From Acetomicrobium thermoterrenum DSM 13490 (GTDB lineage: Bacteria; Synergistota; Synergistia; Synergistales; Acetomicrobiaceae), in contig NZ_FNPD01000001.1 of assembly GCF_900107215.1 (NCBI RefSeq), forward strand, positions 186,001 through 250,000: a stretch of DNA of 64,000 nucleotides, read 5' to 3'. Under the pieces are notes generated by a model. It was not told the origin of the DNA. It made no database searches and saw only the letters and a list, made by a program, of their open reading frames with translations. Numbering within the stretch: position 1 is the first letter of the stretch; every line of letters starts with the position of its first letter. Positions 583-13,543 of this stretch are shown one piece after another. Made by a program: the position numbers and the translations under genes.

Positions 583-1149
583 GTGTCAACATCGGGCGAC
601 AGGAAGCGTCGGCACCAGAGGATTTTGAAGCTTTTAAGGGAAAACCCCCTGCTCACTGACGAAGCTTTGGCTAATGCCCTGGGAGTTTCTTTGAGTACTG
701 TCAGGCTGGACAGGGCACTTCTGGGGATCCCGGAGTTCAGGGAGAGAATGAGAAAAATGGCCGAAGAGGCGACAAGCAGGTTGAGATCCCTGAGGTACGA
801 TGAAGTGGTGGGGGAATTGGTGGAGCTTCAGCCTAACAAACTGGCCCTGTCGGTACTTCAGACCACCGGAGATATGGCCTTTCGCGATACCGACCTGGTA
901 GCCGATCACCACATTTATGCTCAGGCGACCTCTCTAGCGATCGCGGTAGTGGAGGCCGATTACGTGATAACCGCTTCGGCTCACATAAGATACAAGGTTC
1001 CAGCCCGTGTCGGCGATATGCTGGTGGCGAGGGCCAAGGTGGGGACCCACAAGCAGAATAAATACATAGTAAGCGTCAGAACGAAGGTCGAGGGGAAAGA
1101 AATTTTCATTGGCAGGTTCATCGTTGCAGCTCTTGAAAACTACCCCTAA
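583..1149 (+). CDS. fapR: FapR-type transcriptional repressor of fatty acid synthesis
   Basis: A 188-residue protein with an N-terminal DeoR-like helix-turn-helix (about residues 8-55) and a C-terminal hot-dog fold (about 90-187). The layout and length match FapR, which represses lipid synthesis genes and is released by malonyl-CoA or malonyl-ACP. The segment DTDLVADHHIYAQA corresponds to the ligand-pocket region, and IRYKVPARVGD to the hot-dog strand. The start is GTG at 583, preceded by CGGAGG. It heads the fab operon and has a FapR-type operator in its own leader, so autorepression is likely. Confidence 0.92.
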   Translation: MSTSGDRKRRHQRILKLLRENPLLTDEALANALGVSLSTVRLDRALLGIPEFRERMRKMAEEATSRLRSLRYDEVVGELVELQPNKLALSVLQTTGDMAFRDTDLVADHHIYAQATSLAIAVVEADYVITASAHIRYKVPARVGDMLVARAKVGTHKQNKYIVSVRTKVEGKEIFIGRFIVAALENYP

Positions 1150-1196
1150 AAAAGGGTAAAACATAAAAACAAGTGTAGAGAGTTCGACCGATAGGG

Positions 1197-2207
1197 GTGA
1201 GTGTTTTGATCTTGGCATTAGATGCTATGGGAGGAGATCATGCTCCCGGTGAAGTGTGTAAGGGGGCGTTGGCAGCTTGCTCCAAATACCCCGACCTCGA
1301 AGTGGTGTTGGTGGGAGACGGCAGCCAAATAGAAATGTCGATACAGGGCGCGGAGCCTTTTGTAACGAAAAGGATTCATATCGTTCATACTGATGAATTC
1401 ATTACCATGGGCGAATCCCCAACAGTGGCTTTCAGAAAGAAAAAAAAGGCCAGCATTAGGATGGTAATGGATATGGTGAAAAGCGGTGATGCTCAGGGGT
1501 GCATATCGGCGGGCAATACTGGAGCGGTCGTGGCCGGGGGCGTGTTAATTTTGGGCAGAATTGAGGGCATAGACAGGCCCGGCTTAGGAGTTCCCATACC
1601 GTTGCCCAACAGGATTACCCTTCTTATAGATGTTGGGGCAACAGTTCGCTGTAAGCCCATTAACCTCTATCAGTTCGCCATCATGGGGGATATCTACATG
1701 AAGAATACCTTGGGTGTCAAATCCCCCGTCGTCGCTTTGCTCTCCAATGGCGAAGAGGAGATAAAAGGCGATGAGGTCGTCTGCGAAGCCAGGAACATGT
1801 TGGCCGGAGGCAACATGGAGTTTATGGGATATGTGGAAGGCAAGGACATACCCTTGGGAGTGGCCGATGTGGTTGTTTGCGACGGCTTTACGGGAAACGT
1901 GTTGTTGAAGTTCATCGAAGGCGTGGGCGAAGCGTTGTATAAGTTGTTAAAAGAAGAGATGGAACAACGGGTTCTCCCTAAAGTCGGATTTCTTTTTTTA
2001 TTGCCCATGCTCAAGGAGATTTGGGGGCGTTTCGACTACGAAAAATATGGCGGGACCCCTCTGCTCGGCGTTAACGGAGTGGTCATAAAGGCCCACGGAC
2101 GGTCGAAAGCGAGGGCCATTGACAACGCATTGAAGGTCGCCAGGGATTTTGCAAATCATCGTGGCGTTGATTTGATTAGAGACGGCTTGGATCGAGGAGG
2201 GATGTAG
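1197..2207 (+). CDS. plsX: Phosphate acyltransferase PlsX
   Basis: PlsX transfers acyl groups from acyl-ACP to phosphate, giving acyl-phosphate for PlsY and so starting membrane phospholipid synthesis. The 336-residue protein opens with LALDAMGGDHAPGE, the family signature, and keeps the ISAGNTGAVVAG motif and a DVGA...CKP motif (here DVGATVRCKP in place of the more usual DVGANVDCKP). The start is GTG at 1197 after AGGGGTGAG. fabH follows after one base, consistent with translational coupling. It is a soluble, membrane-associated enzyme under the same FapR-type control as the fab genes. Confidence 0.96.
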   Translation: MSVLILALDAMGGDHAPGEVCKGALAACSKYPDLEVVLVGDGSQIEMSIQGAEPFVTKRIHIVHTDEFITMGESPTVAFRKKKKASIRMVMDMVKSGDAQGCISAGNTGAVVAGGVLILGRIEGIDRPGLGVPIPLPNRITLLIDVGATVRCKPINLYQFAIMGDIYMKNTLGVKSPVVALLSNGEEEIKGDEVVCEARNMLAGGNMEFMGYVEGKDIPLGVADVVVCDGFTGNVLLKFIEGVGEALYKLLKEEMEQRVLPKVGFLFLLPMLKEIWGRFDYEKYGGTPLLGVNGVVIKAHGRSKARAIDNALKVARDFANHRGVDLIRDGLDRGGM

Positions 2208-2208
2208 T

Positions 2209-3207
2209 GTGGGTGTTTTTAACGGAAGGCCGGTATCCCTATTGGGTAGCGGCATGTACGTTCCCGAGAAGGTCTTGACCAATAAAGACCTCGAGAAAAT
2301 TGTTGATACTAACGACGAATGGATCAGGACGCGCACAGGCATCGTTGAGCGGAGGGTCGCATCCGACGATCAGGTCACCAGCGATTTAGCTTACCTGGCG
2401 GCCCTCGAGGCCTTGAGGTCATGTTCCCTTAGTCCTGAAGATTTAGATATGGTTATCGTGGCGACAAATACGCCCGACACCATATTTCCTTCGGTGGCTG
2501 CCAAAGTTCAGGGGAAGTTAGCCGCCACAAAAGCGGGAGCAAGCGACATACAGTCCGGTTGCACCAGCAGCGTTTACGCTCTCACTTATGCAGCTGCAGG
2601 CATAGCTTCGTTTCTCTGGGAGAGAGTACTGGTGATAGGGGCCGAAATTTTGACGAGGCTGCTTAATTGGGAGGACAGGTCTACCTGCGTTTTATTTGGT
2701 GATGGCGCCGGAGCTGTCGTTTTGGGAGTTAGTCCTGACGGCAAAAACAGGGTGATATCGGCTTCCCTAAGAAGCGATGGCACGAAAAGCGACCTGATCA
2801 TTTTGCCCGGAGGTTTGGTGGAATGCCCCGCCTCGGTAGAGATGATAGAGAAAAAATTACATACGATTCATATGAAGGGCAACGATGTGTTCAAGTTCGT
2901 GAACAAGGAATTGCCGCCCTTTTTGTCGGAGTTCTGCGATGAATCGGGATTAGCTCTTGACGATGTGGACTGGTGGATATTTCATCAAGCAAACTACCGG
3001 ATCGTGGAAAGCGTACTGAGGCGCCTCGGCGTTTCCATGGATAAAGCTATACTGAACGTGGATAAGTACGGAAACACCTCCTCAGCCTCCGTTTTTCTGG
3101 CCTTTCATGAGGCCATGGCAGAGGGAAAGGTGAAGAGGGGAGACAAGGTAGTCATGGTGAGCTTCGGGTCGGGGATGACCTATGGGGCTACATTGATAGA
3201 GGTATGA
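2209..3207 (+). CDS. fabH: 3-oxoacyl-ACP synthase III
   Basis: FabH condenses an acyl-CoA primer with malonyl-ACP to start fatty acid elongation. The Cys-His-Asn triad is visible: Cys118 in SGCTSSVYAL, His259 in FHQAN and Asn289 in YGNTSS. The length (332 residues) is normal. The active-site context SGCTSS differs from the common AACSG but keeps the nucleophile. The gene starts with GTG one base after plsX and its stop overlaps the fabK start, so plsX-fabH-fabK are likely coupled. Confidence 0.96.
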   Translation: MGVFNGRPVSLLGSGMYVPEKVLTNKDLEKIVDTNDEWIRTRTGIVERRVASDDQVTSDLAYLAALEALRSCSLSPEDLDMVIVATNTPDTIFPSVAAKVQGKLAATKAGASDIQSGCTSSVYALTYAAAGIASFLWERVLVIGAEILTRLLNWEDRSTCVLFGDGAGAVVLGVSPDGKNRVISASLRSDGTKSDLIILPGGLVECPASVEMIEKKLHTIHMKGNDVFKFVNKELPPFLSEFCDESGLALDDVDWWIFHQANYRIVESVLRRLGVSMDKAILNVDKYGNTSSASVFLAFHEAMAEGKVKRGDKVVMVSFGSGMTYGATLIEV

Positions 3208-4166
3208 GGTGTATGAGGATGTTTAAAAATACGAGAATTCAAGAACTGCTTGGATTGGAGTACCCCATTTTTCAGGGCGGTATGGCCTGGGTCGCCAATG
3301 CCGATCTGGCTGCCGCAGTGAGCAATGGAGGAGGGCTCGGCGTCATAGCTGCGGGGAACATGCCTCCTGAATTGTTGGACAGGGAGATAAAGAGGGCAAA
3401 AAGCATGACAGACAGGCCTTTTGCCGTTAACATAATGCTCATGTCCCCCACGGCAGAAGCCGCAATTGAGGTGGTCGCCGAAAATCGCGTTCCCGTGGTG
3501 ACTACCGGAGCCGGCAGCCCCGGGAAGGTGATAGAAAGGCTGAAACCCTTGGGTACCATAATAATACCGGTAATAGCATCGGTAGCCCATGCGAAGAGGG
3601 TCGAAAAGCAGGGAGCCGATGCTGTGGTTGCCGAAGGAACCGAGGCCGGAGGCCATATAGGCGAGCTAACGACAATGGTCCTCGTCCCTCAGGTGGCAGA
3701 TGCCATTAGCATTCCCGTCGTTGCCGCAGGCGGCATAGCCGACGGACGTGGCGTCGTTGCAGCCTTTGCCCTTGGGGCCGAGGGCGTGCAGGTAGGGACG
3801 CGTTTCGTCTGCGCCGTCGAAAGCCCTGCCCATGAGGCCTACAAGCGCATGATCATCGAGGCCACTGACAGGTCTACCGTCGTTACAGGACGCACGACGG
3901 GCCATCCCGTGAGGTGTATTAAGAACAAATTGACGAAAAGGTTCGAGGAAATGGAAACAGCAGGAGTCAGCCTGGAAGAGCTGGAGGCGTTTGGAGCGGG
4001 AAAGCTCAGGGCAGCAGTGATGGAGGGCGACGTGGAGTGGGGGTCGGTGATGGCCGGCCAATCCGCCGGTCTGGTCAAAAAGGTTCAGCCCGCTGCAGAG
4101 ATCATCAAAGAACTTTTTAGCGACGCCGAAAGGGTCCTTCGAGGCCTCGAAAATCGTTTAGAGTAA
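3204..4166 (+). CDS. fabK: Enoyl-ACP reductase II (FMN-dependent)
   Basis: A TIM-barrel FMN protein of the FabK/nitronate-monooxygenase group. Key segments are YPIFQGGMAWVA near the start, AVNIMLMSP, EGTEAGGHIG and AAGGIADGRG plus GVQVGTRF, the FMN phosphate-binding region. In a fab operon this is the FabK enoyl-ACP reductase, which does the last reduction of each elongation cycle. The start could be ATG 3204 (overlapping the fabH stop by 4 bases) or ATG 3219, which has GAGG close upstream. FabK is insensitive to triclosan in known cases. No FabI or FabL is in the window. Confidence 0.92.
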   Translation: MRCMRMFKNTRIQELLGLEYPIFQGGMAWVANADLAAAVSNGGGLGVIAAGNMPPELLDREIKRAKSMTDRPFAVNIMLMSPTAEAAIEVVAENRVPVVTTGAGSPGKVIERLKPLGTIIIPVIASVAHAKRVEKQGADAVVAEGTEAGGHIGELTTMVLVPQVADAISIPVVAAGGIADGRGVVAAFALGAEGVQVGTRFVCAVESPAHEAYKRMIIEATDRSTVVTGRTTGHPVRCIKNKLTKRFEEMETAGVSLEELEAFGAGKLRAAVMEGDVEWGSVMAGQSAGLVKKVQPAAEIIKELFSDAERVLRGLENRLE

Positions 4167-4189
4167 AAGTGGAAGAGAGGTGAAATTCC

Positions 4190-5143
4190 TTGGCATATGC
4201 GTTCGTTTTTCCGGGCCAGGGTGTCCAGGAAGTGGGCATGGGAAGGGAGTTTTACGACGAATTTACCGTCTCCAGGGAGATGTTCTTGCGAGCCGACGAA
4301 GCCCTTGGCTTTCCTCTTAGCAGGGTCATATTTGAGGGCCCCGAAGAGGAATTGACCAAGACAGAGTTCGCCCAGCCGGCTATCCTGACCGTCTCTATTG
4401 CCGCCTTCGAAGCGCTGAAGTCCATGCGGAAAGAGTTGGATCCCTCCTTCGTTGCCGGTCACAGCTTAGGGGAGTATACGGCCCTGGTCGCTTCGGGCGC
4501 CTTAAAACTTGAGGATGGAGTAAGGCTCGTCAATATTCGCGGCAAGCTCATGCAGCAGGCCGTTCCTCTTGGCGTCGGTGCCATGGCTGCCATCATCGGA
4601 CTGGACAAGGAAACGGTCGAAGAAATATGTAGCCTAGCCTCGACGGCCGAATCTTTTTGTGAGCCTGCAAATTACAATTCGCCCCAACAGATCGTCCTCT
4701 CCGGACATACCGAAGCGGTAAATCGCGCTATAGTACTGGCCAAGGAGAGAAAGGCAAAAAGGGCTGTTCCGTTAAAGGTAAGTGCCCCTTTCCACTCCTC
4801 ATTGATGCGCCCCGTTGCTGAGGGGTTGAGCGAGGCCTTTAAAAGTTGCGAGTGGAGAAGGCCCAAGTGGCCTGTAGTGGCAAACGTAAACGCCAAACCC
4901 CTTGAAAGCGTGGAAGAAATACAGAAGGCCCTGCTCCTTCAAAGCTACAGTCCCGTGTTATGGACCCAGTCGGTGGAGTTCATGAGGGGGGCGGGAGCAT
5001 ATTTCTTCCTGGAGGTCGGCCCCGGCGGAGTGTTGACGGGCTTGATCAAAAAGATCGCTAAAGACGTCAAGGTTTACTCCCTCGATAGCCCGGAAAAATT
5101 AAAGGGAGCTCTTGATTTTTTGGGGGGTGCTCAAGTAGAATGA
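4190..5143 (+). CDS. fabD: Malonyl-CoA:ACP transacylase
   Basis: FabD moves malonyl from CoA to ACP, supplying the two-carbon donor. It opens with FVFPGQGVQEVGMG and has the nucleophile Ser92 in GHSLGE and His202 in APFHSS, the catalytic pair. The 317-residue length is typical. The start is TTG at 4190 behind GAGAGGTGA. Its last four bases overlap the fabG start. Confidence 0.96.
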   Translation: MAYAFVFPGQGVQEVGMGREFYDEFTVSREMFLRADEALGFPLSRVIFEGPEEELTKTEFAQPAILTVSIAAFEALKSMRKELDPSFVAGHSLGEYTALVASGALKLEDGVRLVNIRGKLMQQAVPLGVGAMAAIIGLDKETVEEICSLASTAESFCEPANYNSPQQIVLSGHTEAVNRAIVLAKERKAKRAVPLKVSAPFHSSLMRPVAEGLSEAFKSCEWRRPKWPVVANVNAKPLESVEEIQKALLLQSYSPVLWTQSVEFMRGAGAYFFLEVGPGGVLTGLIKKIAKDVKVYSLDSPEKLKGALDFLGGAQVE

Positions 5144-5886
5144 CTTCGGTTTGTAAGGTGGTCTTAATAACAGGTGCCAGCAGGGGCATAGGAAGGGCTA
5201 TTGCACTGAAGATGGGAAGTCTGGGCTATGCCGTTGCATTAAACTGCAGATCCTCGGCAGAACAGGCCGAGGAGGTAGCATCTGAGATAAGAAAGATGAA
5301 TTCCGAGGCGAGAGTTTTCCTTGCCGACGTAGGGGATGCCAAAAGCGTCAAAGGGATGTTTGAGGCCATCAAAAGGGATCTGGGACCTGTCTCCATCCTG
5401 GTCAACAATGCCGGAGTCGTAAGGGACAACATTTTGCTTCGCATGAAGGACGAAGAATGGGATGATGTGTTAAGGGCAGATCTTACCTCTGCTTTCTACT
5501 GTACGAGGGAAGCTCTGCGGGATATGGCGAAGGCGAGATGGGGAAGGATAGTATACGTGAGTTCTGTAGTGGGCCTGATGGGAAACGCAGGTCAGTCCAA
5601 TTACGCTGCAGCCAAGGCCGGGTTGGTGGGTTTTGCCAAAAGCGTTGCCAGGGAGTACGGCCCCAGAGGGGTAACGGCAAACGTGGTAGCGCCGGGGTTC
5701 ATAGAGACGGATATGACTCAAAAGCTGGGAGACCAATATAGAGAGCAGTTTTTGAGCCGTGTGCCCCTCGGTCGGGCCGGCAGACCGGAGGATGTTGCGA
5801 ACTTGGTGGCCTTTTTGGTCTCCGATGATGCCGAATACATCACCGGACAGGTCATAGCTGTAGATGGCGGAATGGTCATGCATTAG
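5140..5886 (+). CDS. fabG: 3-oxoacyl-ACP reductase
   Basis: A short-chain dehydrogenase of 248 residues. It has the NADPH-binding GASRGIGRA (12-20), NNAG (89-92), and the catalytic Ser142, Tyr155 and Lys159 (YAAAK). The C-terminal VDGGMVMH is the usual FabG ending. It reduces 3-oxoacyl-ACP in the elongation cycle. It overlaps fabD by four bases and acpP follows after 24 bases. Confidence 0.97.
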   Translation: MTSVCKVVLITGASRGIGRAIALKMGSLGYAVALNCRSSAEQAEEVASEIRKMNSEARVFLADVGDAKSVKGMFEAIKRDLGPVSILVNNAGVVRDNILLRMKDEEWDDVLRADLTSAFYCTREALRDMAKARWGRIVYVSSVVGLMGNAGQSNYAAAKAGLVGFAKSVAREYGPRGVTANVVAPGFIETDMTQKLGDQYREQFLSRVPLGRAGRPEDVANLVAFLVSDDAEYITGQVIAVDGGMVMH

Positions 5887-5910
5887 TATTTTGGAAGGAG
5901 GTGAGTAAAG

Positions 5911-6162
5911 ATGAGATTGGAAGAAATCCAGGAAAAACTCAAACAAATAGTAATGGACAGATTAGATGTCGATGAGGATCAGATCACGATGGAAGCCTCC
6001 TTCGTGGAGGATTTGGGTGCCGATTCGCTCGATATCGTTGAACTCATCATGGGCATCGAAGAGGAGTTCGATATCGAGATCCCCGACGAAGACGCAGAAA
6101 AGCTTACTACCGTCGGAGGAGCATTGGAGTACATTAAGACCAAACTTGGTGTAGAAGAGTAA
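5911..6162 (+). CDS. acpP: Acyl carrier protein
   Basis: An acidic 83-residue protein with the phosphopantetheine site Ser39 in [10 protein letters not shown]. It carries the growing acyl chain. A strong AAGGAGGTG ribosome site lies 8 bases before the ATG, fitting the high expression expected of ACP. A hairpin follows the stop codon before fabF. Confidence 0.98.
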
Positions 6163-6170
6163 AGGCATAG

Positions 6171-6198
6171 GGCTCTTGCAGGTCATCCCGCAAGAGCC
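6171..6198 (+). promoter_or_regulatory. Hairpin between acpP and fabF
   Basis: A 9-bp perfect stem GGCTCTTGC (6171-6179) / GCAAGAGCC (6190-6198) with no T-run after it. It is not a full terminator. It may stabilise the acpP mRNA 3' end or partly attenuate fabF, giving more ACP than synthase; that role is inferred. Confidence 0.6.
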
Positions 6199-6228
6199 TC
6201 TACACCACTAATCGAAGGAGTGAACAGC

Positions 6229-7467
6229 TTGAGAAGAGTGGTGATAACTGGGGTTGGCGTCGTAAGTCCTATCGGAAACAGTAAAGATGAATTCTGGAAG
6301 GCCCTTGAGGAGGGTAAAAACGGCGTGGGATATATCACGCTTTTCGACGCCTCCGATTATCCTGTAAGAATAGCTGCCGAAGTGAAGGATTTCGATTCGG
6401 GACAGTGGCTTGAAAAAAAGGAAGCCAGAAAAACCGACAGGGTCATACATTTTGCCGTCGCCGCTTCGGATATGGCAATCAAAGACAGCGCTTTGGATTT
6501 GAGCATGGAGGATCCGACGAGGGTTGGGGTTTACTTGGGGAGCGGCGAAGGTGGTATAGGAACGAGTTTTCAAAACATCAAGGCCTTGATAGAAAAAGGC
6601 CCTAACAAGATTAGCCCCTTTTTCATTCCCATGATGATAAGCAATATGCCCGCAGCTTACGTGGCAATAAGATGCAACGCCAAGGGCCCAAGCCTATGTG
6701 CCGTAACAGCCTGCGCCACTGCAACGCATACTATAGGTGAGGCCATATATGCCATTAGGAGGGGAGAAGCCGACGTAATCCTTGCAGGAGGTGCGGAAGC
6801 TGCCATTACGCCCGTCGGCGTGGCTGGTTTTGCAGCCATGAAGGCACTGTCTTCCAGGAACGATGACCCCGAGCACGCATCGCGTCCCTTCGATGCAGAC
6901 CGGGACGGTTTCGTTTTGGGCGAAGGTGCGGGAGTGCTTGTCCTGGAGGAGCTTGAACACGCAAAAAAGAGGAACGCCAAGATATACGGAGAACTTGTAG
7001 GTTACGGAAATACCACCGACGCCTATCATATTACCGCTCCGGATCCCGATGGAGCGGGAGCGGTCAGGGCTATGAAGATGGCTATAGCCATGGCGGGTTG
7101 GGATCCTGCGGAGGTTGAGCTTATAAATGCCCACGGCACATCCACGCCTTTAAACGATACGATGGAGGCCAAAGCGATCAGAGCCCTTTTCGGGGAGCAC
7201 ACAGATGATATTTTGGTCCATTCCACAAAATCAATGGTGGGACACGGCTTGGGTGCGGCAGGTGTCCTCGAGTTAATCGCTCTGCTGATGGCCCTGGAAA
7301 AAGGCGTCGTCCATCCAACCATCAACCTTGAAAAACTTGACGAAGAATGCCCCATCAATGTCGTGGGAAAATCTCCAGTATACAAGAAGATCAGTCGAGC
7401 TTTGTCGAACAATTTCGGCTTCGGGGGGCATAATGCCGTTTTGGCAATACAACGTTATGAAGGTTAA
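6229..7467 (+). CDS. fabF: 3-oxoacyl-ACP synthase II
   Basis: FabF elongates acyl-ACP with malonyl-ACP. The protein has the catalytic Cys in TACATAT (residue 162 from this start), His in NAHGTSTP and His in KSMVGHGLGAAG. I prefer the TTG at 6229: GAAGGAG (6214-6220) is 8 bases upstream, the protein then opens LRRVVITGVGVVSP like other FabF proteins, and the earlier GTG at 6220 lies inside the ribosome site. It is the last gene of the fab operon; a probable terminator follows. Confidence 0.95.
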   Translation: MRRVVITGVGVVSPIGNSKDEFWKALEEGKNGVGYITLFDASDYPVRIAAEVKDFDSGQWLEKKEARKTDRVIHFAVAASDMAIKDSALDLSMEDPTRVGVYLGSGEGGIGTSFQNIKALIEKGPNKISPFFIPMMISNMPAAYVAIRCNAKGPSLCAVTACATATHTIGEAIYAIRRGEADVILAGGAEAAITPVGVAGFAAMKALSSRNDDPEHASRPFDADRDGFVLGEGAGVLVLEELEHAKKRNAKIYGELVGYGNTTDAYHITAPDPDGAGAVRAMKMAIAMAGWDPAEVELINAHGTSTPLNDTMEAKAIRALFGEHTDDILVHSTKSMVGHGLGAAGVLELIALLMALEKGVVHPTINLEKLDEECPINVVGKSPVYKKISRALSNNFGFGGHNAVLAIQRYEG

Positions 7468-7504: not shown

Positions 7505-7560
7505 AAGGGAAGATCCGCTCTTGTGCCGAATGTTAAGCATGTGGTCTTCCCTTTTTATTT
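7505..7560 (+). terminator. Probable terminator of the fab operon
   Basis: AAGGGAAGA (7505-7513) pairs with TCTTCCCTT (7545-7553), followed by TTTATTTTTAT. The 31-base loop is unusually large, so efficiency is uncertain. No shorter hairpin is seen inside it. Confidence 0.6.
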
Positions 7561-7566
7561 TTATGT

Positions 7567-7596
7567 AACTTTTATGCAACCGGTTGCATAAAAGTT
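7567..7596 (+). promoter_or_regulatory. Perfect 30-bp palindrome, probable operator of the pyr promoter
   Basis: Two exact 15-base arms (7567-7581 and 7582-7596) meet at a CCGG centre; the core is ATGCAACCGGTTGCAT. Operators of LacI/GalR-family repressors typically have such a central CG and arms of this kind. The -35 hexamer TTGCAT lies in the right arm, so a bound protein would exclude RNA polymerase. No candidate regulator is encoded in the window. Confidence 0.72.
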
Positions 7597-7612
7597 TGCC
7601 CTCTGATATACT
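7584..7612 (+). promoter_or_regulatory. Promoter of the pyr operon
   Basis: TTGCAT (7584-7589), a 17-base spacer and TATACT (7607-7612) form a good sigma70-type promoter. Transcription would start near 7619, giving a leader of about 150 bases before pyrR that contains a small ORF and an attenuator. Confidence 0.72.
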
Positions 7613-7653
7613 CTCTTCTAAAGGAGATATCTTTTGCGGGGAGGTAAATTATT

Positions 7654-7728
7654 GTGAAACAAAGACTTGATAATAAAGACAGAGCCCAACGAAGGGGCTG
7701 TCTTAAAAAGTTTCGAGAGCTTCCGTGA
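7654..7728 (+). CDS. Possible 24-codon pyr leader peptide
   Basis: A GTG start at 7654 lies 9 bases after GGGGAGG. The frame runs 24 codons, rich in Arg and Lys (opening MKQRLDNKD), and ends with TGA at 7726-7728. The stop codon is inside the rising arm of the terminator hairpin, the arrangement seen in leader-peptide attenuators such as enterobacterial pyrBI. A ribosome reaching this stop would keep the terminator from folding. The ribosome site is good, but the ORF is short and could be fortuitous. Confidence 0.45.
   Translation: MKQRLDNKDRAQRRGCLKKFRELP
7676..7704 (+). promoter_or_regulatory. First leader hairpin of pyr operon (possible PyrR-binding or pause hairpin)
   Basis: AAGACAG (7676-7682) pairs with CTGTCTT (7698-7704) and CCC (7685-7687) with GGG (7695-7697). 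This leaves a two-base purine bulge on the 5' side and a loop AACGAAG. PyrR-binding loops also have a purine bulge and a GA-containing loop, but the PyrR consensus is not clearly matched here. Confidence 0.5.
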
Positions 7729-7756
7729 GGTCTTTTTCATGGAAGCTCTTTTTTTA
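7716..7756 (+). terminator. Attenuator terminator before pyrR
   Basis: A 13-bp stem (7716-7728 with 7737-7749, one G-U pair), an 8-base loop and a run of seven T residues make a strong intrinsic terminator inside the leader. Read-through must be regulated for the pyr genes to be expressed. Confidence 0.88.
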
Positions 7757-7770
7757 GGGAGGTGGCGAGA

Positions 7771-8310
7771 GTGAAAGTCAAGGCTGTAGTGATGGACGAG
7801 AAGGAAATGGATCTTACGATAAGAAGGATAGCCCATGAAGTTTTGGAGAAACTTGGCGGCACTGACGAAGCAGTCCTGGTGGGGATCCAAAGAAGAGGGG
7901 TATATCTTTCCCACAGGATCAGGGACGTCATTAAGTCCTCGGGTTATAAGGAACTTCCCTGCGGAGAGCTGGATATAACCTTTTACAGGGATGATCTTTC
8001 GTTAATGGCCGATCATCCGATGGTGCACAGCACGACCATGCCCGTGGACATAACGGGCAAGGATATAGTGCTGGTTGACGATGTTCTTTTCACGGGAAGG
8101 ACGGTGAGAGCTGCCCTTGATGCCTTGATGGATATGGGAAGACCGAGGAGGGTTTTGCTGGCCGTTTTAGTGGACCGTGGGCATAGAGAGCTTCCCATTC
8201 ATCCCGATGTGGTAGGAAGGGTTGTTCCCACTTCAAGGGATGAAGTCGTAGAAGTTTACGTCAGGGAGCTCGACGACAAGGACGGTATAGTCATAGCGGA
8301 GAAGGAGTAG
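7771..8310 (+). CDS. pyrR: PyrR, pyr attenuation protein / uracil phosphoribosyltransferase
   Basis: PyrR binds pyr mRNA when UMP is high and promotes termination; many homologues also convert uracil and PRPP to UMP. The PRPP-binding loop IVLVDDVLFTGRTVRAA is clear, and the length (179 residues) fits. I choose GTG 7771, 8 bases after GGAGG (7758-7762); the GTG at 7762 overlaps that site. The gene follows an attenuator terminator, its usual place, and heads pyrBCKDFE. Confidence 0.94.
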   Translation: MKVKAVVMDEKEMDLTIRRIAHEVLEKLGGTDEAVLVGIQRRGVYLSHRIRDVIKSSGYKELPCGELDITFYRDDLSLMADHPMVHSTTMPVDITGKDIVLVDDVLFTGRTVRAALDALMDMGRPRRVLLAVLVDRGHRELPIHPDVVGRVVPTSRDEVVEVYVRELDDKDGIVIAEKE

Positions 8311-8324
8311 GGGGGTGTGGTTTT

Positions 8325-9254
8325 ATGCCTTGGAAACACAGCCATCTGGTAGACGTAGACGTCTTTAGCGAAGACGACTTTTACGTCGTCTTGGAAGAGG
8401 CTTGTAAGATGGAAGAGGTCATGGAAAGGCCATTAAAAAAGGTCCCCGCTTTGAGGGGAAAGGTCGTTGCCAATTTATTTTTCGAGCCATCCACGCGAAC
8501 CAGGACGTCTTTTGAGCTTGCGGAAAAATTCTTGAGCGCCGACGTGATTAACTGGTCCGCCTCGGGATCAAGCGTATCAAAGGGGGAGAGCCTTCAGGAT
8601 ACTGCCAAGACGATCAAAGCAATGGGAGTGGATGCCGTTGTCGTTAGAAATAGGGAAGTCGGGACGCCGGAATACCTGATAAACAAGCTTTCGGGAACGT
8701 GCATCATCAACGCAGGTGACGGAGCGAGGGCTCACCCCACTCAGGCTTTGCTCGATCTTTATTCCGCCTGGAGACATTTTGGAGATTTGAAGGGCCGCAA
8801 AATGGCGATAATTGGCGACATACTGCACAGCAGGGTAGCAAGGAGTGACATTCACGCCTTCTCGAAAATGGGAGTTCATGTGGTGGTTTCAGGCCCAAGG
8901 TCCTTGATCCCCCTTCACGTTTTCGATCTCGCCGAATACGAACCGGATCCCAAAAAGGCCGTAGAAGGCGCCGATATTGTATATGCCTTGAGGATTCAGC
9001 GTGAAAGACAGGAGGAAGGTCTCTTTCCCAGCATCGATGAATATCACAATCGATGGGGCGTGAAGACAGAACTTCTGCGTAATGCCGAAAGAAATGCAAT
9101 AGTGATGCATCCCGGCCCCATGAACAGGGGTGTCGAAATAGAAAGTTCTGTGGCTGACGGAAGCAGAAGTTTAGTGTTGGATCAGGTGAGAAGCGGTGTG
9201 GCCGTCAGGATGGCTTTACTTTTCCTGTATTTAGCCGGAGGTGCGGGTAGATGA
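8325..9254 (+). CDS. pyrB: Aspartate carbamoyltransferase, catalytic chain
   Basis: This enzyme makes N-carbamoyl-L-aspartate from carbamoyl phosphate and aspartate. The carbamoyl-phosphate loop FFEPSTRTRTSFE (Ser56-Thr57-Arg58-Thr59-Arg60) is intact, as is HPGPMNRGVEI near the C-terminus. The length of 309 residues is standard. No pyrI regulatory chain is nearby, so it is probably the unregulated trimer, as in Bacillus. It overlaps pyrC by four bases. Confidence 0.97.
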   Translation: MPWKHSHLVDVDVFSEDDFYVVLEEACKMEEVMERPLKKVPALRGKVVANLFFEPSTRTRTSFELAEKFLSADVINWSASGSSVSKGESLQDTAKTIKAMGVDAVVVRNREVGTPEYLINKLSGTCIINAGDGARAHPTQALLDLYSAWRHFGDLKGRKMAIIGDILHSRVARSDIHAFSKMGVHVVVSGPRSLIPLHVFDLAEYEPDPKKAVEGADIVYALRIQRERQEEGLFPSIDEYHNRWGVKTELLRNAERNAIVMHPGPMNRGVEIESSVADGSRSLVLDQVRSGVAVRMALLFLYLAGGAGR

Positions 9255-10564
9255 TTTGGTTGCGTAAAGTGTTCCTCTATGATGGAAGGAGTTTGAGAGA
9301 GGGCAAATGGGATCTTCTCCTTGAGAAGGGCAGTGTGACGAAGTTGGTTCCTTCAGAAAGCAACAGCTTGCAAGAAGAGGATGTATTTTACGATCTTGAA
9401 GGCTTCATGGCTTGTCCAGGGTTTGTCGATCTCCATGCCCATTTGAGGGATCCGGGCCAGACTTGGAGAGAGGATATCTATAGCGGTTCTCTTGCTGCCG
9501 CGGCAGGAGGTTTTACCCATGTGGTCGCCATGCCTAACACCACTCCGGCAGTGGACGAACCTTCTATCGTCCGTTACGTCGCAGAAAAGGGGAGGGTTGC
9601 CGGGGGAGCAAGGGTGCTTCCGTCGGGTGCCGTGACGGTGAAAAGAGAAGGCAGGCGGATTACCGAGATGTTAGCAATGAAAAAAGAAGGGGCGGTGCTT
9701 TTTACCGACGACGGCTCTCCGGTGATTTCGGCTAAGGCCATGCGAATAGCTCTTTTATACCTCAAGGATGTAGGGGTGCCCCTCATGGAGCATCCAGAAG
9801 AGTTAAGTCTTTCCGAAGGGGGGCAAATTAACGAAGGCAGAGTGAGTGCCCTTTGCGGTCTTAAGGGGATACCGCGAAGCTCCGAGATAATAGGAGCAGA
9901 AAGAGCGATAAGGTTGTGCGAGGAGACCTCCGGTCGTCTTCATCTGACTCACATAAGCACCAAAGAGGCTTTGGAGGCCATAAGGCGGGCCAAGGAACGG
10001 GGATTGCCAATTACGTGCGATGTGACACCTCACCACCTTCTCTTTGACGAAGAGACGATATTGCATTCTGCCTTTTCCTCTTCCCTTAAGGTCAATCCTC
10101 CGTTGAGGAGCGGAGAGGATGTGGAGGCTCTTTGGCGTGGCCTGGAGGATGGGACGATCGATGCCATAGCAACCGATCACGCCCCCTATCACGTAGACGA
10201 AAAGGATGTTGTCTTTGAGGCTGCGCCCTTTGGGATAGCTTCCCTTGAGTGCGCCGTGGCTGCAGTCATCGATAGATGGAATAGAAGGGGCAGGCCCTTT
10301 TCAAAGGAAAGGCTCTTCGAGCTTTTTTCGACGGGACCGGGAAGGGTAATCGGACTTGAGAGAAAACTGAAGCTCGGCTCGAAGGCCGACTTGACGATAA
10401 TTGATTTGAACCTTGAGGGGAAAGTCGATGTGGCAAACTGGAAAAGCAAGGCGAGGATAACGCCATACGACGGCTTTACCTTTAAGGGATGGCCGGTATT
10501 GACCATCCTGGAAGGTAAAATAGTTTATAATCGTCTAAAAGAAGAGGTATGTCATGCATTGTAG
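9251..10564 (+). CDS. pyrC: Dihydroorotase
   Basis: PyrC cyclises carbamoyl-aspartate to dihydroorotate. It belongs to the longer multifunctional-type group (437 residues). Zinc ligands His62 and His64 are in DLHAHLRDPG, and further metal and substrate residues lie in THIST, CDVTPHHL and ATDHAPY. The start ATG overlaps the pyrB stop, and its own end overlaps pyrK by 11 bases. Confidence 0.96.
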   Translation: MIWLRKVFLYDGRSLREGKWDLLLEKGSVTKLVPSESNSLQEEDVFYDLEGFMACPGFVDLHAHLRDPGQTWREDIYSGSLAAAAGGFTHVVAMPNTTPAVDEPSIVRYVAEKGRVAGGARVLPSGAVTVKREGRRITEMLAMKKEGAVLFTDDGSPVISAKAMRIALLYLKDVGVPLMEHPEELSLSEGGQINEGRVSALCGLKGIPRSSEIIGAERAIRLCEETSGRLHLTHISTKEALEAIRRAKERGLPITCDVTPHHLLFDEETILHSAFSSSLKVNPPLRSGEDVEALWRGLEDGTIDAIATDHAPYHVDEKDVVFEAAPFGIASLECAVAAVIDRWNRRGRPFSKERLFELFSTGPGRVIGLERKLKLGSKADLTIIDLNLEGKVDVANWKSKARITPYDGFTFKGWPVLTILEGKIVYNRLKEEVCHAL

Positions 10565-11333
10565 CCGTGGACTGGAACGGGAAGGTTTTTTGATCGACAA
10601 GGCCTTTTTGGGCGGAGGCGTGTATTCGTTGAGATTTGAGACGAAAGAACTTCTTCCCGAAATTTTGCCGGGACAATTTTTTATGCTAGGACCTCATCGA
10701 TGGAAAAGCGACCCCTTTTTGCTCAGGCCCTTTGCCGTGGTCGATTGGTCGGAAAATGACGTCGAATTTTTGGTGAAGGTTGTGGGCAGAGGTACGAAAG
10801 ATATCGTCTCTTGCGAAAGAGGCACCCCCTTTCGCCTTCGGGGACCCCTTGGGAACGGTGTCTTTACTGCCGCAAGGGGAAGGTCTTTGGCGTTGGTCGC
10901 AGGAGGGATAGGAGTGGCGCCTTTGCTGTGCGCCTGGAAATTCCACTCCGATGTTGTAAGCAGCTTCGTCTTTGGCGTTTCAAACGGGGATTGGGCAGGC
11001 GTGGCAGATTGGGCAAGCAGTAAAGTCTCCGGTCTGACCGTGGCCTCCGACGACGGATCACTGGGTTACAAGGGAACTGCCCCGGACGTTTTAAAAAAAG
11101 AAGGGGATTTGATCGATGAGATATGGGCCTGTGGTCCTGTTCCCATGCTTAAAGCGGTATACGGGGCATTTGGGGGAAAGTCGCTTATCATGGCGTCGCT
11201 TGAGTCAAGGATGGGTTGCGGCATCGGGGGATGTCATTCCTGTACAGTGAAAACGCAAAGGGGCATGCTTAAAGTGTGCCATGACGGCCCTGTTTTCGAT
11301 CTTTCGGAGGTATTTTTGGATGAGCTTATCTGA
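10554..11333 (+). CDS. pyrK: Dihydroorotate dehydrogenase B, electron-transfer subunit
   Basis: PyrK carries FAD and a [2Fe-2S] cluster and passes electrons from the PyrD FMN site to NAD+. The ferredoxin-reductase-like N-terminal part contains LLRPFAV (FAD binding), the middle part has a nucleotide-binding segment (GGIGVAPLL), and the C-terminal cluster site is MGCGIGGCHSC with a later Cys in KVCHDGP. Length (259 residues) and position next to pyrD fit the heterotetrameric class 1B enzyme. Confidence 0.95.
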   Translation: MHCSRGLEREGFLIDKAFLGGGVYSLRFETKELLPEILPGQFFMLGPHRWKSDPFLLRPFAVVDWSENDVEFLVKVVGRGTKDIVSCERGTPFRLRGPLGNGVFTAARGRSLALVAGGIGVAPLLCAWKFHSDVVSSFVFGVSNGDWAGVADWASSKVSGLTVASDDGSLGYKGTAPDVLKKEGDLIDEIWACGPVPMLKAVYGAFGGKSLIMASLESRMGCGIGGCHSCTVKTQRGMLKVCHDGPVFDLSEVFLDELI

Positions 11334-12270
11334 CGTCTCGAAAAGCTTACCCGATTTGAGCGTTTCCATAGGCGGATTGACCCTTCCCTCCCCTTTGATA
11401 ATAGCTTCGGGCCTTTGGCCTCACGATGCTTCCTTCTGGCAGGAGCCCTATAGTGCAGGCGTTGGAGCAATCTGCAGCAAGGGGTTGACTCGTCGCCCCA
11501 GGGCAGGCAACAGTGGCATCAGGATATGGGAAACCCCATCTGGAGTGCTTAATAGTATAGGGCTTCAAAACAGGGGAGTAGAGGTCTTTATAAAAGAAGA
11601 GTTGCCCCATCTTGCCAAAAGCGGGATTCCCGTAATCGTCAACCTGGCCGTGGAGTCCCTTGAAGAGACGACAGAGAGCCTGGTCTTGCTCAAATCCGCA
11701 GAGAAGGACATAGCGGCCGTGGAATTAAACGTTTCCTGTCCTAACGTCGATTGCGGCGGTATGGCCTGGGGAATGAGTGCGGATGGTGTCTCGAGCGTTC
11801 TTTTGGCGGCAAGAAAAGCTTGGGAAGGAAAGCTTTGGGTTAAGCTCACGCCTCAGGCCTTCGATTTGCCCTCCGTCGGAAGAGCTGCCGAGGATGGCGG
11901 TGCCGATGCCTTGGTGGTATCCAATACTTGGCTTGGAATGGCCATCGACGTGGAAGCCAAAAAGCCCGTATTCGACAGGATATTTGCGGGCCTGTCTGGC
12001 CCCGCCGTATTTCCTCTTGCATTGCGATGTCTTTACGAAGTGGCAGGGTCGGTCTCCATACCTGTAATAGGTTGTGGAGGCGTTTGCAGCGACGAAGATG
12101 TATTGGCCATGCTCCTTGCCGGGGCTGCCGCCGTAGAGATCGGCAGCATGCTGATGCATGACCTGAAATGCATATCTGATATCTATGAAAGTTTGACTAA
12201 AAGGATGGCCCTTTGGGGCGTCGGTTCCGTGGCGGATATAATAGGAAAGGGAAGAGGTGATCGCTTTTGA
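11320..12270 (+). CDS. pyrD: Dihydroorotate dehydrogenase B, catalytic subunit
   Basis: The FMN TIM-barrel subunit oxidises dihydroorotate to orotate. LNVSCPNVDCGG holds the Cys of class 1B enzymes, and VIGCGGV is in the FMN phosphate region. I choose ATG 11320, which has GGAGG 9-10 bases upstream and gives an opening MSLSDVSKSL. It overlaps pyrK by 14 bases. A longer frame back to 11281 is open but lacks a good ribosome site. Confidence 0.95.
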   Translation: MSLSDVSKSLPDLSVSIGGLTLPSPLIIASGLWPHDASFWQEPYSAGVGAICSKGLTRRPRAGNSGIRIWETPSGVLNSIGLQNRGVEVFIKEELPHLAKSGIPVIVNLAVESLEETTESLVLLKSAEKDIAAVELNVSCPNVDCGGMAWGMSADGVSSVLLAARKAWEGKLWVKLTPQAFDLPSVGRAAEDGGADALVVSNTWLGMAIDVEAKKPVFDRIFAGLSGPAVFPLALRCLYEVAGSVSIPVIGCGGVCSDEDVLAMLLAGAAAVEIGSMLMHDLKCISDIYESLTKRMALWGVGSVADIIGKGRGDRF

Positions 12271-12953
12271 GCGAAATCGTACTGGCTTTGGACGTAAAGG
12301 ACCTGACTTCCGCAGAAAAAATCCTGGAGATGCTGGGACCCGATTTGAAATACGTCAAAATAGGGCCGCGGCTTTTCTGTCAGGGAGGTAGAGACTTCAT
12401 ACTTTCTGTTGGGAAGAACTGGAAAGTATTTTTGGATATTAAGTTGCACGATATACCCAACACAGTCAAGGATGCCGTTTCAGCCATAGCCGAAATGGGA
12501 ATCTTTGGGCTTACCCTCCACATTGCCGGAGGAAAGCGGATGTTGTGCGAGGCGGTGAAGGGGCGAAACGAAGCGAACCCCGATATGAAATTATTTGGCG
12601 TTACAGTCCTGACTAGCATTAACGAAGAAGAGTGGAAAGCCGTCTCTCCGGGATGCGGCATCGAAGATGCGATCGAAATGAGGACCAAACTGGCCGATGA
12701 GGCCGGCATAGACGGTGTCGTCTGCTCTCCCAGGGATTTAGAATCGATAAAGAGGGTTTCAGCCAAGCTTCTTACTTTAGTGCCCGGCGTTAGGCCTGAG
12801 GGTACTTCGAACGACGATCAGGCCAGGACTATGACTCCCGGTGAAGCCAAGAAGAAGGGAGCCGACTTTATAGTGATAGGCAGGCCAATCCTCCGGGCTT
12901 CGGACCCCCTAGAGGCGCTTACCGCTATCAAAGGGGAGGTGGCGTGTTCGTGA
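12267..12953 (+). CDS. pyrF: Orotidine 5'-phosphate decarboxylase
   Basis: PyrF makes UMP from OMP. The catalytic DIKLHDIPNT (Asp57, Lys59, Asp62) is intact and the PGVRPEG and IVIGRPI phosphate-binding segments are present. It has 228 residues, the short bacterial type. The start is TTG 12267, overlapping the pyrD stop by four bases, behind AAGAGGTGA. Confidence 0.96.
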   Translation: MSEIVLALDVKDLTSAEKILEMLGPDLKYVKIGPRLFCQGGRDFILSVGKNWKVFLDIKLHDIPNTVKDAVSAIAEMGIFGLTLHIAGGKRMLCEAVKGRNEANPDMKLFGVTVLTSINEEEWKAVSPGCGIEDAIEMRTKLADEAGIDGVVCSPRDLESIKRVSAKLLTLVPGVRPEGTSNDDQARTMTPGEAKKKGADFIVIGRPILRASDPLEALTAIKGEVACS

Positions 12954-13543
12954 ATGGCGTAAATGATGGAGATCTCCTGGAAAAGATGCTTGCCGACAGC
13001 GGTGCTTTGCTGGAAGGCCATTTCCTTCTGTCCTCCGGCCTCCATAGCGGTAACTATTTACAATGCGCTTTGCTTTTGCGGTTTCCGCGCTATGCAGCTT
13101 ACGTCGGCGAAAGGTTGGCGAACTTAATAAGACCCAGCGCCCCCGATATCATAGCCAGCCCCGCGCTGGGGGGCATAATAATAGGCCATGAGGTGGCCAG
13201 GGCTTTAGACGTCCCCTTTATATTCTGCGAAAGAGAAGAGGGCAAGATGAGGTTGCGTCGGTTTCCCGCACCAGAGGGGATGAGATTTGCCGTCATAGAG
13301 GATGTGGTGACGACGGGAGGATCGATAAAGGAAGTCGGAGAAGCATTAGAGTTACTTGGCGGTAAATGGGTTGCCTCGGGGTGTATAGTGGACAGAAGCA
13401 CGGAAAACACAGGTCTTGAAGTGGAGCTGTTTAGCCTTGCCAAGAAGGTCTTTCCCGTCTATAAACCGGAGGAATGTCCACTTTGTAAGGAAGGGCTTCC
13501 CCTAGTGAAACCAGGCAGCAAAAAAACAAAGGATATAAAATAA
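12944..13543 (+). CDS. pyrE: Orotate phosphoribosyltransferase
   Basis: PyrE makes OMP from orotate and PRPP. The PRPP loop is FAVIEDVVTTGGSIKEV. The N-terminal LSSGLHSGNYLQCA matches the orotate-binding region of the Thermus-like PyrE group, and a C-terminal CPLC pair suggests a metal or structural site. The start could be GTG 12944 or GTG 12950; GGGGAGG (12933-12939) suits the second slightly better. With pyrF it completes the pathway to UMP. Confidence 0.93.
   Translation: MFVNGVNDGDLLEKMLADSGALLEGHFLLSSGLHSGNYLQCALLLRFPRYAAYVGERLANLIRPSAPDIIASPALGGIIIGHEVARALDVPFIFCEREEGKMRLRRFPAPEGMRFAVIEDVVTTGGSIKEVGEALELLGGKWVASGCIVDRSTENTGLEVELFSLAKKVFPVYKPEECPLCKEGLPLVKPGSKKTKDIK

Follow-up and report, generated by a model that had tools for sequence, protein, structure and literature searches.

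The pyr operon of Acetomicrobium thermoterrenum DSM 13490 is preceded by a long perfect palindrome that lies over the −35 box of its promoter, which raises the question whether pyrimidine genes are controlled there by a DNA-binding protein and, if so, by which one. We addressed this question computationally, using the window (the whole stretch of 64,000 nucleotides analysed here), the genome to which it belongs, and the genomes of related Synergistota.

Palindrome and promoter of the pyr operon

The palindrome, AACTTTTATGCAACC followed directly by GGTTGCATAAAAGTT, was found by sequence inspection at positions 7567 to 7596 (no strand assigned), in the gap between fabF and pyrR. It consists of two perfect 15-nt arms with a spacer of 0, the CCGG at its centre being made up of the arm ends (CC plus GG). 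By chance, perfect palindromes with 15-bp arms should occur about 5 × 10−5 times per 64-kb window and 0.0015 times per genome; this was the sole one in the window, where the runner-up had 9-bp arms. The right half contains the hexamer TTGCAT (7584 to 7589, plus strand), separated by 17 nt from the TATACT (7607 to 7612) of an extended −10 element, TG-A-TATACT (7604 to 7612, plus strand; TG at 7604 to 7605). The preliminary description of this DNA had reported a long perfect palindrome, unlikely by chance, whose right arm holds TTGCAT 17 nt before TATACT; coordinates and chance expectation bear this out, and the interval to 7612 that it gave comprises the palindrome plus the promoter. TTGCAT matches the TTGACA consensus at three of six positions only, and for that reason the promoter was absent from the list of a mechanical promoter scan. 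In favor of its assignment as −35 box, it occupies a fixed position in all 30 non-redundant orthologous promoters, where a spacer of 16 to 17 nt and then the −10 box always come after the half-site hexamer.

The first gene of the operon is pyrR (7762 to 8310, plus strand; NCBIfam PyrR, 236 bits with a cut-off of 138), the product of which is 98% identical to PyrR of A. hydrogeniformans. It is followed, 3′ of the palindrome on the same strand, by pyrB, pyrC, pyrK, pyrD, pyrF, and pyrE (8325 to 13543), of which pyrB, pyrC, pyrK, pyrF, and pyrE were assigned with Pfam and pyrD by position and sequence only. Directly upstream of the palindrome region, positions 583 to 7467 of the window hold a fatty-acid synthesis cluster (HTH/thioesterase-like regulator, plsX, and fab genes).

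Loci of relatives were collected with PyrR as the query. Within the palindrome, a 16-bp core, ATGCAACCGGTTGCAT (7574 to 7589, no strand assigned), which has a central CG and a G at half-site position 6, was present with at most three mismatches and at the same promoter position in 30 of the 30 Synergistales pyrR loci first examined, usually 50 to 200 nt before pyrR. Of the roughly 75 pyrR loci that came from other phyla, none had the core at the promoter position, and a single three-mismatch match lay 542 nt upstream. Positions C4, A5, A6, C8, G9, T11, T12, G13, C14, and A15 of the core were invariant in the 30 non-redundant promoters, and G3 was kept in 27. The arms outside the core (positions 9 to 15) co-varied symmetrically among these promoters (108 pairs versus 78 ± 6.5 with permuted partners; 0 of 3,000 permutations); in Acetomicrobium, for instance, both outer arms changed together, from ACTTTT/AAAAGT to ACTATT/AATAGT.

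A whole-genome scan found ATGCAACCGGTTGCAT once in the genome of A. thermoterrenum, at the pyr promoter. The next best place, with two mismatches, lies near gyrB, and among the sites with three mismatches the one at C4:107050 lies between gene ends and not at a promoter. The genome scan and the comparison of pyrR upstream regions proposed in the preliminary description thus gave a site that is kept in relatives and stands mostly at promoters. The two-mismatch site in Acetomicrobium, ATGCAATCGTTTGCAT (G000:C6:95627-95642; L145:4628-4643), is located about 310 nt 5′ of gyrB, and the identical 16-mer was found in G080, G083, and G084.

A short LacI-family protein as candidate regulator

Exactly one LacI-family protein, unusually short at 285 amino acids (G000:C4), was detected in the A. 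thermoterrenum genome in a search for the LacI domain, and each of four other Acetomicrobium genomes likewise encodes exactly one LacI-domain protein. Orthologs of this short LacI across the order measure about 195 to 306 amino acids. Compared as whole proteins they share as little as about 35% identity, while the DNA-binding region hardly varies, with the recognition helix [DN]K[AG]TVSR and Ala/Leu in the hinge; the LacI HTH domain (PF00356) scored 65.9 bits in the short LacI, and the hinge helix is present. In the published code for LacI-family proteins, TVSR corresponds to G at half-site position 6 and hinge Leu to a central CG (PMC2978694), and the operator agrees with this code in its central CG (C8 and G9, 30 of 30 promoters), C14 (30 of 30), and G3 (27 of 30). 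The resemblance of the core to LacI/GalR-family operators, pointed out earlier from its appearance, fits these rules for TVSR and hinge Leu.

We then compared the distribution of protein and site in 188 Synergistota genomes, counting the short LacI as present when it scored over 180 bits and the 16-mer when a match had two mismatches or fewer. Both were found in 68 genomes, the protein only in 6, the site only in 20, and neither in 94 (odds ratio 53, P = 2 × 10−25), whereas a control with the reversed site gave an odds ratio of 0.7. This odds ratio of 53 counts genomes regardless of kinship; phylogeny was taken into account at the level of genera only, where the corresponding counts were 17, 2, 0, and 6 (P = 1.6 × 10−4). 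Many of the 20 site-only genomes are expected, because the site should occur by chance about 0.5 times per 2 Mb. The Synergistales lineages that encode the short LacI keep the core at one and the same place in the pyrR promoter, whereas in eight Synergistota genomes that have pyrR but not the short LacI (f7, f2, G056, and G060) no site was found, the best match having 5 to 8 mismatches. Three draft genomes were apparent exceptions: G020 and G049 carry the site at pyrR and have no detectable lacI, the uridine-kinase-like gene that adjoins lacI in relatives being missing as well, and in G011 lacI runs off the end of a contig. These exceptions are likely assembly gaps.

On the evidence of sequence comparison, it is highly probable that the palindrome serves the short LacI-family factor as its operator and that this factor controls UMP synthesis, presumably by binding and repression, on top of attenuation. 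The preliminary description had proposed that the pyrimidine genes are additionally repressed at the DNA level, possibly by a protein of the LacI family, and this proposal gains support from the conservation of the site, its regulon, the autoregulatory sites, and the co-occurrence with the protein. A genuine operator might also belong to a DNA-binding protein outside the LacI family that shares the phyletic distribution by chance. The site is tied to the LacI protein by co-occurrence and sequence logic only, and the three drafts with a site lack a complete lacI gene, which leaves some room for such a protein; it is nevertheless improbable given the LacI-type architecture of the operator, the single LacI-family protein in the genome, and operator copies directly 5′ of the short lacI in eight cases.

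These copies emerged when sites with at most two mismatches to the 16-mer were assigned to genes (a 14-mer with two mismatches was dropped as a search pattern for lack of specificity). Of 31 short lacI genes, 8 had a site within 100 nt, versus 0.011 expected; LacI-family regulators commonly, though not universally, act on their own gene or on neighbouring ones. In many genomes lacI itself adjoins a uridine-kinase-like gene (PF00485). Sites were also found immediately 5′ of a gene for a nucleobase permease of the NCS2 family in about 16 genomes, 5′ of pyrB in three (at a distance of 88 to 89 nt), 5′ of carA in one, and 5′ of a second pyrR in one. In genus g17 of family f4, pyrR does not come first, and three of the four genomes have their sites at pyrB instead. 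The NCS2 permease scored higher with the xanthine-permease model than with the uracil permease model, and both scores were below the cut-off. In Acetomicrobium, no autoregulatory lacI site and no site at the NCS2 permease gene were found, and as judged from these two loci the local regulon may therefore be the pyr operon alone. In single genera, sites were seen near a thiamine-transporter/HDOD gene pair, an aldehyde ferredoxin oxidoreductase gene, and a GH8-like gene; the operator-like sites L161:3952 and L163:6278, from two genomes of genus g10, are 5′ of the aldehyde ferredoxin oxidoreductase gene.

Relation to PurR, CcpA, and UriR

Escherichia coli PurR resembles the short LacI in being a LacI-type repressor of nucleotide synthesis genes with a palindromic operator that has a central CG, and CA at half-site positions 5 to 4 presumably resembles the PurR box, which we counted in favor of a true PurR-type regulator, an ortholog of the E. 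coli protein with a purine co-repressor. Some pyrimidine genes are indeed among the targets of E. coli PurR (PMC4052901). Such an ortholog is nonetheless very improbable: the PurR equivalog model scored 39.7 bits with a cut-off of 501, CcpA is closer by fold and profile, the second lobe is either reduced or absent, and no purine synthesis genes were identified adjoining the sites examined. The PurR operator also differs from the one described here, and the regulon of the short LacI is centred on de novo UMP synthesis. The term PurR-like, used in the preliminary description, thus holds as an analogy and not as a statement of orthology.

CcpA, in turn, was the best solved relative by profile, and an AlphaFold2 model of the 285-amino-acid protein (pLDDT 85) matched CcpA and LacI, with a shortened effector domain. 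Even so, there is scarcely any chance that the palindrome is a catabolite-control site (cre) of CcpA read through HPr-Ser46-P, since the CcpA model scored 85.4 bits with a cut-off of 442, the CcpA operator is different, and the regulon consists locally of pyrimidine genes. Of six genomes carrying the short LacI, HPr was detected in two and not in the other four; HPr kinase was found in none of the six, a weak test in that the kinase model also misses Bacillus subtilis. A CcpA-like signal through HPr is unlikely. UriR of Corynebacterium is likewise a LacI-family factor tied to pyrimidine nucleosides but controls nucleoside utilisation and not UMP synthesis, and the short LacI scored 50.7 bits against its cut-off of 550.

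The effector domain of the short LacI is degenerate, and one clade lacks an entire lobe of it. LacI-family proteins of about 195 amino acids, present in many genera of family f5 (L209, L213, and L177), comprise the DNA-binding domain plus one lobe; a model of such a one-lobed protein reached a pLDDT of 90, and in f5 the classical ligand cleft seems to be absent. It is conceivable, if rather doubtful, that in f5 a one-lobed repressor keeps its operators and works without an effector cleft, pyrimidines being sensed via a partner protein or through the repressor's own autoregulated level. Variants with a reduced effector domain are natural material on how such repressors signal. LacI-family regulators have, to our knowledge, been described almost exclusively as sensors of sugars.

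Leader attenuation and proposed layers of control

Between the promoter and pyrR, the leader (7613 to 7761) contains an intrinsic terminator with a 16-pair stem and a U-run (7715 to 7756, plus strand), the putative attenuator. A putative leader peptide, MKQRLDNKDRAQRRGCLKKFRELP (7654 to 7728, plus strand), starts with GTG, spans 24 codons, and ends at a stop within the terminator stem; it is preceded by the Shine-Dalgarno-like GGGGAGG (7638 to 7644). Leader open reading frames reaching into or through the terminator were found in 17 of 21 leaders of relatives, versus 2.6 in shuffled leaders, and this arrangement suggests translation-coupled attenuation. We take it to resemble the leader-peptide attenuation of enterobacterial pyrBI, in which a short open reading frame with a Shine-Dalgarno-like sequence likewise extends into or past a terminator. 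The peptides differ, however, and here a putative coupling would be combined with a DNA operator.

With PyrR-dependent attenuation (RF00515), the locus shares pyrR at the head of the operon and a leader terminator. The RF00515 model matched the leader over its full length and in the right place, but at 25.2 bits it stayed below the gathering threshold of 54, and a DNA operator is added here; the leader is possibly a diverged relative of RF00515. Some leaders of relatives, with or without LacI, matched this model weakly, at up to 49 bits. The preliminary description had noted that in most bacteria with PyrR the pyr operon is under attenuation and not under a DNA repressor; the additional DNA-level layer that it proposed is supported here, and attenuation was not displaced by it but retained, as indicated by the terminator, the leader open reading frame, and PyrR-loop-like leaders in some lineages.

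Under the operator reading, a dimer of the short LacI would occupy both half-sites, place its hinge helices at the central CG, and block RNA polymerase at the −35 box, thereby repressing UMP synthesis. The signal would be pyrimidine sufficiency, with a nucleotide or nucleobase as its carrier or, where the protein has a single lobe, perhaps a partner protein. Any transcript escaping repression would meet the second control, the terminator overlapped by the short leader open reading frame. This layer at the promoter is very probably used by many Synergistota for their pyrimidine genes. A literature search, which covered few subscription journals, found no earlier description of pyrimidine genes under LacI control in Synergistota. 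A dedicated LacI-type system for UMP synthesis, stacked on leader attenuation across a Gram-negative phylum, would give the Synergistota, a little-studied group, a regulon open to testing.

The reading of the palindrome as an RNA hairpin, terminator of the fab operon, or DNA cruciform with no protein partner was rejected as having next to no chance because, although the strand does fold into a hairpin, the letters of the core themselves, and not just their symmetry, are kept, and their distance from the −10 box is constant; in addition, the right arm has no following U-run, and a separate terminator-like hairpin of the upstream fab operon, distinct from the palindrome, lies just upstream (7505 to 7560, plus strand).

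In lineages without the short LacI, PyrR-loop-like leaders were observed in G010 and G060 (L235 and L242), scoring 38.9 and 48.8 bits with RF00515, respectively, which is consistent with PyrR attenuation in these genomes.
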